A DNA stretch of 64,000 nucleotides, from positions 1,116,001 to 1,180,000 of the forward strand of contig NZ_CP021404.1 of NCBI RefSeq assembly GCF_002504165.1, written 5' to 3'. Each line of letters begins with the position of its first letter. The first letter of the stretch is position 1. Made by a program: the position numbers and the translations under genes. Positions 20,253 through 45,120 of the stretch are shown here, piece after piece. The notes below the pieces were generated by a model. That model saw nothing but the letters and a program-made list of their open reading frames with translations. It ran no database searches and had not been told where the DNA came from. The stretch is from Pacificitalea manganoxidans (GTDB lineage: Bacteria > Pseudomonadota > Alphaproteobacteria > Rhodobacterales > Rhodobacteraceae).

Positions 20253-20876
20253 ATGATGACCGATATGACTGACGACACCCCCAAGAAAATCCATCCCGGC
20301 CTGAAAATGGCGCTGGAGATGGGCCCCATCGCCGCGTTCTTCGTGGCCTATCTGCGCCTGAAGGATCAGGTCTACACGATCGGCGGCACCGATTATGACG
20401 GCTTCGTGCTGGTCACCGCCGGGTTCATCCCGCTGCTGCTGATCTGCACCGCGATCCTGTGGAAGCTGACCGGCCATCTGTCGAAAATGCAGATCGTCAC
20501 CGCGATCCTCGTCACCGTGTTCGGCGGGCTGACCGTGTGGCTCAACGACGACCGGTTTTTCAAGATGAAGCCGACGATGATCTACACGCTCTTTGCGGCG
20601 ATCCTCGGCTTTGGCCTGCTGCGGGGCAAAAGCTATCTGCAAATGGTGATGGACGGCGCGATGCCGCTCAAGCCCGAAGGCTGGATGATCCTGACCCGCA
20701 GACTGACGGTGTTCTTTCTGGCGCTGGCCGTGCTGAACGAGGTGATCTGGCGCACGATGAGCACCGACGCTTGGGTGACGTTCAAGACCTTCGGCCTGAC
20801 CATCGCGGTGTTCGGCTTCTTCATGGCGCAGGGCAGCCTCTTCAAACGCTACGGCACCGAGACCCCGAAGGGGTAA
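20253..20876 (+). CDS. yciB: Inner membrane protein of the YciB/IspZ septation family
   Basis: 207 residues, five to six membrane helices. Family features are the opening LKMALEMGPIAAFFVAYLRL, the middle KPTMIYTLFAAILGFGLLRGKSYL (shown in part) and ALAVLNEVIWRTMSTDAWVTFK. YciB (IspZ) is implicated in septation and envelope assembly through contacts with cell-division and elongation proteins. The SD GAGGA ends at 20250; the tandem ATGs at 20253 and 20256 and another at 20265 all stay in frame, so the exact start is uncertain by a few residues. It follows the DMT transporter directly. Confidence 0.9.
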   Translation: MMTDMTDDTPKKIHPGLKMALEMGPIAAFFVAYLRLKDQVYTIGGTDYDGFVLVTAGFIPLLLICTAILWKLTGHLSKMQIVTAILVTVFGGLTVWLNDDRFFKMKPTMIYTLFAAILGFGLLRGKSYLQMVMDGAMPLKPEGWMILTRRLTVFFLALAVLNEVIWRTMSTDAWVTFKTFGLTIAVFGFFMAQGSLFKRYGTETPKG

Positions 20877-20905
20877 GGCACGCAAGGCCGGACGCCCCCG
20901 CCCCC

Positions 20906-22128
20906 GCCCGCGAACAAGGCCACAGGCCGCGCGGGCGAGCGCCTGCCCGTTCCGCGGGCTGGCGCTTGGCCACCGCCGCGCTGACCTCAGGGCGGGGAGG
21001 TATTTGGCTGGGATAAAGCTCACCGCCTCCACCGTCCCAGCGCCACCCTACGGGCAGGCTTCCGTCATGCCCCCGTTAACGGAGCATGGCGCGTCCCTCC
21101 GAACTTAGCGCATCCGCTCTCGGACAAGGCCGAAGGCCGCGAGAGCGAGCGCCTGCCCGTCCCCGCGGGCTGGCGCTTTGCAATCGCCGGGCTGACCTCT
21201 GGGCGGGGGGGATGTGGCACCATTAAGCGCACCCGCTCACCCGTCCCGGCGCCACCCCACGGGCAGGCTACCGTTGCGGTAGACCCAATGGGGCGTCGGC
21301 GAAGTTTGCCCCTGAAGGCGACACTCGAACTCAGCGCACCCGCTCTCGGACAAGGCCAAAGGCCGCGAGAGCGAGCGCCTGCCCGTCCCGCGGGCTGGCG
21401 CTTTGCCACCGTCGCGCTGACCTCGGAGCGGGGAGGTATGCGGCACCATAAAGCACACCCGCTCAACCGTCCCAGCGCCACCCCACGGGCAGGCTACCGT
21501 TGCGGTAGACCCAATGGGGCGTTGGCGAAGTTTGCCCCTAAAGGCGACACTCGATCACAGCACACCCGCTCTCGAACAAGGCCACAGGCCGCGAGAGCGA
21601 GCGCCTGCCCGTCCCCACGGGCTGGCGCTTGGCCACCTCACGCTGACCTCGGAGCGGGGAGGTATGCGGTACCATTAAGCGCACCCGCTCCACCGTCCTA
21701 GCGCCATCCCACGGGCAGGCTAGCGTTCTGCTCGGATTAGCTATGCCTCGTAGCCTCTGAACTCAGCACACCCGCTCTCGAACAAGGCCGAAGGCCGCGA
21801 GAGCGAGCGCCTGCCCGCCCCCCGGGCTGGCGCTTTACCACCTCACGCTGACCTCGGATCGGGAAGGGGTGTGTCTCCATAAAGCGCGCCGCTCAGTCGC
21901 AGCAGCGCCACCCCACGGGCAGGCTCCCGGTGCGCTTAGCCTCCCGACGTGAAGCAACCTTCAATCACAGCACTCCCGCCTGCGAACAAGGCGAAGCGCG
22001 CGGGCGAGCGCCTGCCCGCTTCACGGGCCGGCGCTTTGTAACCGCCGGGCTGACCTCGGGGCGGGGAGGTAGGTGGCACCATTAAGCACACCCGCACACC
22101 CGCCCGAGCGCCACCCCACGGGCAGGCT
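20906..22128 (+). repeat. Intergenic structured repeat family, cluster A (six tandem units)
   Basis: Six complete units at 20906-21060, 21116-21269, 21342-21495, 21568-21721, 21774-21925 and 21978-22128. Each is about 151-155 bp, with 49-72 bp spacers. A unit has hairpin 1 (outer arms GCTCTCG/CGAGAGC or GCCCGCG/CGCGGGC, constant loop side AACAA, inner self-complementary GGCC pair), hairpin 2 (AGCGCCTGCCCG / CGGGCTGGCGCT with one T-T mismatch), a conserved middle with GCTGACCTC and CATWAAGC, and a distal arm AGCGCCACCCCACGGGCAGG plus CT. The second and third spacers are nearly identical, marking a 226-bp tandem duplication. The region from 20877 to 22174 holds no other feature; small open frames here are by-products of the repeats. 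Confidence 0.95.
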
Positions 22129-22174
22129 CATCGTGGCCCCAGCCCGCCCGGCCTTTGCGCGCCTTGCCCGCCTG

Positions 22175-22879: not shown

Positions 22880-22962
22880 TGGGACACTCCTCTCTTTGCG
22901 GCCAGCATGCCGGGATTCAGCCGGAGGGCAAGGGGCGGCGGGCCGAAAGCGCGAGGGGCGGG

Positions 22963-23643
22963 GCGCTTGGCCACGTTGCGCTGACCTCGGAGTGGGGAGG
23001 GGTGTGTCACCCCAAAGCGCCTGGCTCCAGCCGATCAGCGTCACCCCCACGGGCAGGCTCGCGGTGTGCCAGCCATCTACCGCCAAAACACGACCGAACT
23101 TAACGCACCCGCTCTCGAACAAGCCCGCAGGGCGCGAGAGCGAGCGCCTGCCCGTCCCTGTGGGCTGGCGCTTTGCCACCTCACGCTGACCTCAGAGCCG
23201 GGAAGGTGCGTGGCATCATAAAGCGCACCCGTTCCACCGTCCCGGCGCCACCCCACGGGCAGGCTCGCGTCGCCCCCAGTTTCCCAACGTCTATTCCTCT
23301 TCGATCTCAGCACACCGGCCCCACCTGTCCCGGCGCCACCCCACGGGCAGGCTCCCGTCGCTCCCAGACGACAGAGACTCACAACCTCCGACCTCAGCGC
23401 AGCCGCTCTCGAACAAGCCCGCAGGGCGCGAGAGCGAGCGCCTGCCCGTCCCTGCGGGCTGGCGCTTGGCCACCTCACGCTGACCTCAGAGCGGGGAGGT
23501 TGGTGGCAGCATAAAACGCCCCGCTCACCCGTCCCGGCGCCATCCCACGGGCAGGCTCCCGTTGCGCCCGGTTTCCCGGCATCTAACAACCTCCGATTTC
23601 AGCACACCCGCCTCATCCCTTGTTCGCCACCCCCCGGGCAGGC
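22963..23643 (+). repeat. Intergenic structured repeat family, cluster B (two complete, three partial units)
   Basis: Same family and orientation as the cluster at 20906. Complete units are at 23111-23265 and 23405-23557. Partial units are at 22963-23059 (lacks hairpin 1 and most of hairpin 2), about 23310-23353 (distal part only) and about 23601-23643 (degenerate distal part). In both complete units hairpin 1 keeps the outer arms GCTCTCG/CGAGAGC while the inner stem is GCCC/GGGC instead of GGCC/GGCC, still fully paired. The cluster sits upstream of the GST gene and of the metZ promoter. Confidence 0.93.
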
Positions 23644-23733: not shown

Positions 23734-23762
23734 TTGACGCATCGCGCCTGCGGGCGTAATCG
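23734..23762 (+). promoter_or_regulatory. Promoter of metZ
   Basis: TTGACG (23734-23739), 17-base spacer, TAATCG (23757-23762). The expected start site, about seven bases on, falls at 23769, the first base of the riboswitch stem, so the transcript would begin directly with the SAM-II aptamer. Confidence 0.7.
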
Positions 23763-23768
23763 CTTCGC

Positions 23769-23822
23769 CGTGGCGCTTTGTTCACCGGATTGCGGGCCAC
23801 GTTAAACATCCCGCTAAAGAGG
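23769..23822 (+). promoter_or_regulatory. SAM-II riboswitch (metA motif)
   Basis: A compact leader aptamer in front of metZ. The P1 stem is CGTGGC (23769-23774) with GCCACG (23796-23801). The loop carries TTGTTCACCGGATTGC, as in SAM-II. After P1 come GTTAAACAT and CCGCTAAAGAGG (23811-23822), whose CCGC pairs back to GCGG in the loop (23792-23795) as the H-type pseudoknot. SAM-II aptamers bind S-adenosylmethionine and shut down methionine synthesis genes in alphaproteobacteria. A T6 run at 23864-23869, after a weak C-rich/G-rich pairing, leaves transcriptional control possible beside translational control. Confidence 0.9.
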
Positions 23823-23887
23823 TCAGGCACAGGGAACCCCCGGCGCTGACTTGGCGGTGGGGATTTTTTATGGCCGGAGGGCATCAC

Positions 23888-31944: not shown

Positions 31945-32365
31945 AGCGCCATCCCACAGGCGGGTTCCTGTCGCACCCAGCCACTCGGCGTCCCACTGAA
32001 CTCAGCGTAACCGCCCGCGAACAAGGCGGAGCCGCGCGGGCGAGCGCCTGCCCGTCCCTGCGGGCTGGCGCTCTGCCACCTCACGCTGACCTCGGAGCGG
32101 GGAGGCATATGACACCATAAAGCACACCCGCCCCCGCGTAGCAGCGCCACCCCACGGGCAGGCTCCCGTTGCGCCTAGCCTCTTGGCGTCCCGCAACCTT
32201 CGACCTAAGCACCCCCGCCCGCGAACAAGCGAAGCGCGCGGGCGAGCGCCTGCCCGTCCCCACGGGCTGGCGCTTTGTCACCTCATGCTGACCTCAAAGC
32301 GGGGAGGCATATGACACCATAAAGCACACTCGGCCCCGCGTAGCTGCGCCACCCCCGGGCAGGCT
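31945..32365 (+). repeat. Intergenic structured repeat family, cluster C (two complete units, one fragment)
   Basis: Complete units are at 32013-32164 and 32217-32365, and a distal-arm fragment at about 31945-31964. Orientation is as in the clusters at 20906 and 22963. Hairpin 1 outer arms are GCCCGCG/CGCGGGC in both, with inner stems GGC-GGA-GCC and GC-GAA-GC. The cluster fills most of the 670 bases between valS and metG, both on the minus strand, so it runs against transcription of those genes. Confidence 0.93.
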
Positions 32366-32432
32366 CACGTTGCGCTTCAGCGCACCGACCGCTCCCCTCA
32401 GCGCCCTGCCTGCGGGGCTCGCGGCCGGTTCA

Positions 32433-44112: not shown

Positions 44113-44279
44113 TTACAGGTCGGTAACGGGATTTCGAGGGAGTTCCGGCAGGATTTGGCCGAATTTCCGCAGGCCGGGCGCGCCGGTAGGGATATGTTAG
44201 GCGATCCTGCGGCTGGCGCTTGCCGGGGTGGGGAGGGCGATTGCACGCCCCTCCCGGCTGTTTCATGAGCGCGACGCAA

Positions 44280-45120
44280 ACCTGCCCGTGGGGTGGCGCT
44301 GGGACGGTTGAGCGGGTGTGCTTTATGGTGGCGTGTTCCTCCTCGCCCAGAGGTCAGCGAGGGGTGGCCAAGCGCCAGCCCGCAGGGACGGGCAGGCGCT
44401 CGCCCGCGCGGCCTTTGGCCTTGTTCGCGGGCGGTTGCGCTGAGTTCTGAAGAGCGCTCGGCACCGAAAGAGAGGGCACAACGTGAGCCTTCCCGTGGGT
44501 TGGCGCTGAGACGGTTGAGCGGGTGTGCTTTATGGTGCCGTGTTCCTCCCCGCTTCGAGGTGAGCGCGAGGTGGCCAAGCGCCAGCCCGTCGGGGCGGGC
44601 AGGCGCTCGCTCTCGCGGCCTTTGGCCTTGTTCGCGGGCGGTTGCGCTGAGTTCTGAAGATCGCTCGGCACCGAAAGAGAGGGCACAACGTGAGCCTTCC
44701 CGTGGGGTGGCGCTGGGACGGGGGAACGGCGCGCTTTATCCCCGCCACATTCCTCTTCGATCAGACGTCAGCGAGGGGTGGCAAAGCGCCAGCCCGTCGG
44801 GGCGGGCAGGCGCTCGCTCTCGCGCTTCGCTTGTTCGAGAGCGGGTGCAAGGAGTTCGGAGGTTTCAAGGCGCTGCCACTCTAGGTGCACCGCAAGCCTG
44901 CCCGTGGGATGGCGCTGGGACGGCTGAGCAGCGCGCTTTATGGTGCCGTGTTCCTCCCCGTTCCGGGGTCAGCATAAGGTGGCCAAGCGCCAGCCCGTGT
45001 GGGCGGGCAGGCGCTCGCCCTGCGCGGCCTGTGGCCTTGTTCGCGGGCGGTGGCGCTGATTTCTGAAGATCGGGCGCTCATCGGAGCGCTTCGCTTATTC
45101 GTGGGCGGGGGCGCTTGGGT
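44280..45120 (-). repeat. Intergenic structured repeat family, cluster D (four complete units, one decayed)
   Basis: Same family as the cluster at 20906, in reverse orientation. Units are at 44280-44432, 44486-44639, 44693-44842 and 44895-45048, and a decayed one runs from about 45061 to 45120. The spacers between the first three units are nearly identical (TTCTGAAGA, CGGCACCGAAAGAGAGG), marking tandem duplication. Read in family orientation, the unit at 44486 has left arm GCCCGCG but right arm CGAGAGC, a chimera of the two arm types, and the unit at 44895 has a one-base bulge. Between convergent EamA transporter and carA genes. Confidence 0.94.

Follow-up and report, generated by a model that had tools for sequence, protein, structure and literature searches.

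Six tandem units at 20897-22129 of the 64,000-nucleotide stretch of Pacificitalea manganoxidans DNA analyzed here (the window) are probably copies of a dispersed intergenic repeat that acts at the level of DNA, comparable to the REPIN and CIR elements but lacking a resident Y1 (RAYT) transposase, rather than RNA switches. The repeat is present in many copies and many genera of its order, lies at the 3' ends of genes, is oriented with the replication fork and covaries in two competing folds.

Each unit is a non-coding, palindromic sequence of about 165-175 bp, in which hairpin 1 is followed by a local hairpin formed by arms L and R, a spacer with a conserved ATAAAG motif and a distal arm, D, which in unit 1 begins 73 nt past R (Table 1). 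Unit 1 has five direct neighbors in its array, and covariance model R1 recovers three further clusters in the window, at 22956-23558, 32004-32366 and 44278-45057. All the arms and complementarities named in the original prediction, according to which D can pair with either half of the local hairpin, are present in the sequence. The flank directly adjacent to the upstream side of hairpin 1 is random sequence. The inner loop of hairpin 1, mostly C(GNA)G, does not decide between action as DNA and as RNA, because it could be a stable DNA triloop on the printed strand or a UNCG loop on the other. Internally deleted units of 66-70 nt, consisting of hairpin 1 and the L hairpin, also occur beside full copies in the P. 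manganoxidans genome.

Table 1. Units of the repeat and their parts. Positions are those of the window, except for the last row, which gives loci elsewhere in the P. manganoxidans genome.
Feature	Position	Strand	Description and basis
Unit 1 of array, full length	20897-21061	+	Hairpin 1, L-R hairpin, spacer, distal arm; covariance model R1, 151.6 bits
Hairpin 1	20905-20937	+	CGCCCGCG...CGCGCGGGCG, inner GGCC hairpin; folding and covariation
Arm L of unit 1	20938-20950	+	AGCGCCTGCCCGT; sequence
Arm R of unit 1	20955-20966	+	CGGGCTGGCGCT; sequence
Distal arm D5' of unit 1	21039-21045	+	AGCGCCA, complementary to R; sequence, covariation
Distal arm D3' of unit 1	21050-21059	+	ACGGGCAGGC, complementary to L; sequence, covariation
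Unit 2	21107-21270	+	Model R1
Unit 3	21333-21496	+	Model R1
Unit 4, top-scoring copy of genome	21559-21722	+	Model R1, 185.4 bits
Unit 5	21765-21926	+	Model R1
Unit 6	21969-22129	+	Model R1
Partial unit, model positions 61-153	22956-23049	+	Model R1
Second-cluster unit	23102-23266	+	Model R1
Solitary distal arm	23333-23353	+	Pattern match
Second-cluster unit	23396-23558	+	Model R1
Third-cluster unit	32004-32165	+	Model R1
Third-cluster unit	32208-32366	+	Model R1
Fourth-cluster unit	44278-44441	-	Model R1
Fourth-cluster unit	44485-44648	-	Model R1
Fourth-cluster unit	44692-44851	-	Model R1
Fourth-cluster unit	44894-45057	-	Model R1
Internally deleted units, 66-70 nt	L206:3184-3253, L188:3396-3465, L189:3157-3226, L193:7074-7139		This genome

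Forty-six copies were used to build a covariance model, which recovered at least 150 full-length copies in the 3.96 Mb genome that contains the window. These form 71 clusters, each with between one and six units, at a modal unit spacing of 203 bp. The family is present in 57 of the 149 sampled genera of Rhodobacteraceae, at copy numbers that range in related genera from none detected to more than 150, and all 80 named matches among those listed belong to Rhodobacterales. A phage collection gave no match to the repeat; in a plasmid collection two Salipiger plasmids matched, and one viral contig also matches. The plasmids (NZ_CP014598.1 and NZ_CP014599.1 of Salipiger sp. CCB-MM3), both of them large, carry copies at ~73-75% identity. 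The repeat appears to be undescribed, with no family match in an Rfam scan of the units and no account of it in the literature searched, in which subscription papers were mostly not included, and is best filed as a Rhodobacterales-wide variant of the palindromic intergenic repeats.

Within the P. manganoxidans genome, as in the other genera, D can pair with L and R at once in a nested arrangement that goes beyond the either-or pairing first envisaged, through helices of 11 bp (L-D3') and 6 bp (R-D5'). A T-T mismatch had been predicted to persist in the local hairpin and to be repaired in the long-range pairing, and this is what the copies display: L-R has T-T in 144 of the 147 full-length copies, while the same position is T-A in 143/147 for L-D3' and 145/147 for R-D5'. 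The minimum-energy fold is long-range in 31 and local in 11 of 46 copies with RNA parameters, and long-range in 19 and local in 27 with DNA parameters; the two folds are therefore nearly isoenergetic, each occurring as a minimum. The pairing is not due to chance, and four units cut before D3' have folding z-scores of -2.1 to -4.1. RNAalifold, when applied to the copies of this genome, chose the nested long-range fold; since their arms are ~97-99% conserved, these copies alone separate the folds only at the mismatch position.

Copies from other genera, drawn from matches to the whole-unit model and not from a fixed L/R pattern, vary in every arm. Among 65 distinct arm sets, the mismatch column forms a Watson-Crick pair in 21 for L-R, as against 58 for L-D3' and 56 for R-D5', and the two long-range helices show GC, TA, AT and CG pairs in this column. 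Across 55 sequences, 16 of the 24 pairs of the long-range fold have changes on both sides, in 125 cells; 91.6% of its cells are paired, a level that none of 500 shuffles reached, and a shift of the partner by 1-3 columns lowers the pairing to 32-44%. The local hairpin covaries as well (12 of 18 pairs, with 68 cells changed on both sides), which establishes that both folds are conserved. The claimed competition between the long-range pairing and the local hairpin is thus borne out: uncompensated changes in the distal arm would have spoken against it, and those found in other genera are, to the contrary, mostly compensated. D5' and D3' are themselves mostly paired, the mismatch column excepted. 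A further element, the tail T, consists of 7 nt just downstream of D that copy the 5' arm of hairpin 1 and pair with its 3' arm, perfectly so in 54 of 104 copies (566/728 cells paired, against a mean of 499 and a maximum of 514 in shuffles). In many copies from Pseudoroseicyclus, T repairs a G-A mismatch that remains when hairpin 1 pairs through its 5' arm; T is absent from the P. manganoxidans copies. The sequences compared are related, and templated correction of imperfect palindromes could yield part of the covariation without selection; such correction, however, would be expected to act first on the mismatch between L and R, which lie closer together.

With genes called by a simple codon-usage scorer, none of the 71 clusters of this genome, and none of 59 in other genomes, lies inside a called gene. 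The clusters occupy 35 convergent versus two divergent gaps (background 100:107, p=4e-8), at a median distance of 86 bp where the stop codon faces them and 268 bp where the start codon does; unit 1 starts 21 bp past the stop at 20876. One of the two divergent gaps holds the second cluster of the window, directly before a SAM_alpha (SAM-II) riboswitch (23760-23838, 62.1 bits) that lies outside the units and upstream of an O-succinylhomoserine-sulfhydrylase-like gene. The clusters show no preference for the direction of the adjacent gene (28 same, 42 opposite, p=0.12) and instead follow replication: 52 of 69 are co-directional with the fork (p=3e-5), with the origin and terminus placed by dnaA (C1:531) and a sampled GC skew turning near 1.8-2.0 Mb, whereas the genes have no such bias (184/384). 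With the terminus assumed to lie opposite dnaA, co-directional clusters number 18/25 and 13/18 in two other genera (total 31/43, p=0.005). Because the clusters follow the fork, the printed strand would be the lagging-strand template.

These observations bear on whether the units act as RNA. As an RNA switch, or a structured 3'-UTR or ncRNA, they would be transcribed, and displacement of the local hairpin by the distal arm would control the expression or decay of the neighboring transcript; the covariation of both folds, the predominance of long-range RNA minima and the placement just past stop codons would all suit such a role. In RNA helices, G-U pairs are normally far commoner than A-C. The G-T:A-C counts are 45:36 in the P. 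manganoxidans genome (variable end column excluded) and 43:45 across genera (mismatch column excluded), against 14:0 by the same count in a control of only 15 tRNAs that is biased by pre-filtering; tRNAs replaced SAM_alpha, whose model of 6 pairs made it unusable as a wobble control. The local helix alone has 21 G-T versus 5 A-C (mismatch column excluded), which would fit an RNA of the plus strand and counts against reading the unit as a DNA repeat. However, with no overall excess of G-U, no bias in orientation relative to the upstream gene, an avoidance of divergent gaps and no Rfam match, we consider the on/off switch of the original prediction unlikely; the cruciform or hairpin-DNA alternative that it also offered fits. 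A bidirectional element at transcription ends or mRNA 3' ends, whose GC-rich hairpins would stop the polymerase or block 3' exonucleases on either strand and for that reason favor convergent gaps in either orientation, would account for the enrichment in such gaps and the short stop-codon distances in both data sets, as well as for the position of unit 1. We regard it as improbable, given that it leaves unexplained the two conserved alternative folds, the fork-linked orientation and the arrays with as many as six tandem units, and that the L-R hairpin is followed by only TTTG and no long U tract.

The fork-linked orientation would also suit a site of chromosome maintenance, that is, replication-oriented DNA bound through methylation, by gyrase or by nucleoid proteins, comparable to the CcrM-associated CIR of Caulobacter. 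In its favor, hairpin 1 contains GANTC in 61 of 105 copies from other genera, while each of five control motifs occurs in at most 4/105. Yet GANTC occurs in none of 147 copies of the P. manganoxidans genome, which has one of the largest expansions, and the wide range of copy numbers among related genera would be odd for an essential site; this explanation, too, seems rather unlikely. As described in PMC2229807 and PMC10969869, the CIR repeats of Caulobacter and Brucella (original Chen and Shapiro 2003) resemble the present repeat in being alphaproteobacterial, ~110 bp or more in length and strictly intergenic, with two base-paired arms. With most copies from other genera they also share the CcrM site GANTC, which in CIR is placed in or close to the loop of one arm. 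By description they differ in lacking a stem that pairs the 5' and 3' ends, whereas long-range pairing of the arms is the structure best supported for our repeat, and in the GANTC that the P. manganoxidans copies lack.

The reading of the units as DNA-level repeats has a close parallel in the REPINs, inverted doublets of REP sequences (PMC3116915). The covariation of L-D3', R-D5' and L-R reveals an inverted pair of REP-like palindromes that can form one long hairpin. Like REPINs (PMC3116915) and REP dimers (PMC3733652), the repeat comprises two imperfect inverted palindromes and a spacer, which fold singly or as one hairpin, with compensatory changes, a high copy number and extragenic placement. 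It departs from them in its additional hairpin 1 and tail T, the ATAAAG motif of its spacer and its ~203 bp tandem arrays; moreover, no GTAG or GTGG tag was found at the foot of the palindrome, as GCCGGGCG, GCGGGCG or similar sequences precede L in the aligned copies. Most carriers also lack a resident gene for the Y1 transposase (RAYT, Pfam PF01797), which is missing from the P. manganoxidans genome and from 13 of 18 other repeat-bearing genomes, one of them with at least 150 copies; we therefore reject RAYT as the driver in most genomes. The CGTC-tagged REPs (PMC3733652) are likewise typical of alphaproteobacteria, commonly dimeric and not associated with a transposase. They have a CGTC tag, an 8-9 bp stem starting with A-T pairs, a 4-5 nt loop and a CCA tail, whereas in our aligned copies no CGTC precedes L, the local stem is 11-12 bp with only the first pair consistently A-T, and the loop and tail differ; they also have intragenic copies, of which we saw none. 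MITEs such as ERIC, RUP and Correia/NEMIS (PMC2229807) share the size, intergenic position and terminal inverted repeats, the last being ~20 bp in other genera (the hairpin-1 3' arm and L versus D3' and T). They differ in that neither a target-site duplication nor a parental insertion sequence was found for our repeat, and in that its hairpin-1 5' arm lies outside the inverted repeat. An integron attC reading was set aside, with no GTTRRRY core visible by eye.

Leisingera species differ in the orientation of the repeat at fixed sites. At one orthologous site in four species the orientation is split two versus two (L335, L336, L346, L353, ~1500-1670), and at a second site two species differ, while three further orthologous pairs agree. 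The flipped site adjoins a shared 270-bp repeat. This separate, non-coding repeat of ~270 bp adjoins many Leisingera copies (L334-L339, L346, L348, L353, L363); the copies scanned matched no tRNA or Rfam family, and an rRNA/tRNA identity of the shared flank was rejected. Leisingera also has miniatures of 71-82 nt (L345, L347, L349, L351, L352, L355, L359), possibly a related repeat family, which lack the spacer and have the same arms. The retention of the L-D3' stem in this short form points to the long stem as the core structure. In Alloyangia pacifica, a 197-bp stretch present in one strain and absent from another (L103:5285-5482 versus L106:980-995) is unrelated to the repeat.

We propose that a single DNA strand can take up two forms. 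In one it would make local, REP-like hairpins that mostly carry a defect, namely hairpin 1, L-R and a weak D5'-D3'; in the other, a single long, near-perfect hairpin would be built from L-D3' and R-D5', joined outside the P. manganoxidans genome by the hairpin-1 3' arm with T. Selection would act on the DNA, most likely the single-stranded lagging-strand template, and not on RNA. The repeat may spread as a non-autonomous element, via a putative trans-acting enzyme or replication-linked copying, with copies in promoters and genes presumably purged, and tandem duplication, at a period of about 203 bp, probably enlarged the arrays of this genome. Counting against the DNA-repeat reading, we saw neither a movement event nor an empty site or a duplication of the target, the relatives searched for empty sites including no congener of P. 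manganoxidans, and Y1 is missing in most carriers. A bolder proposal, which we hold to be unlikely, is an element class built for strand exchange: its conserved local defect would be repaired only by the long-range partner, so that hairpins on the lagging strand would resolve into one long hairpin and the element would copy or invert in place without a Y1 transposase.

A bacterial order that is large and of ecological importance contains an abundant and apparently undescribed repeat. This repeat offers a clean natural case in which competition from a long-range partner explains why a local hairpin keeps a mismatch. The orientation with the fork, together with the flips at fixed sites, makes the spread of palindromic repeats without a transposase directly testable.
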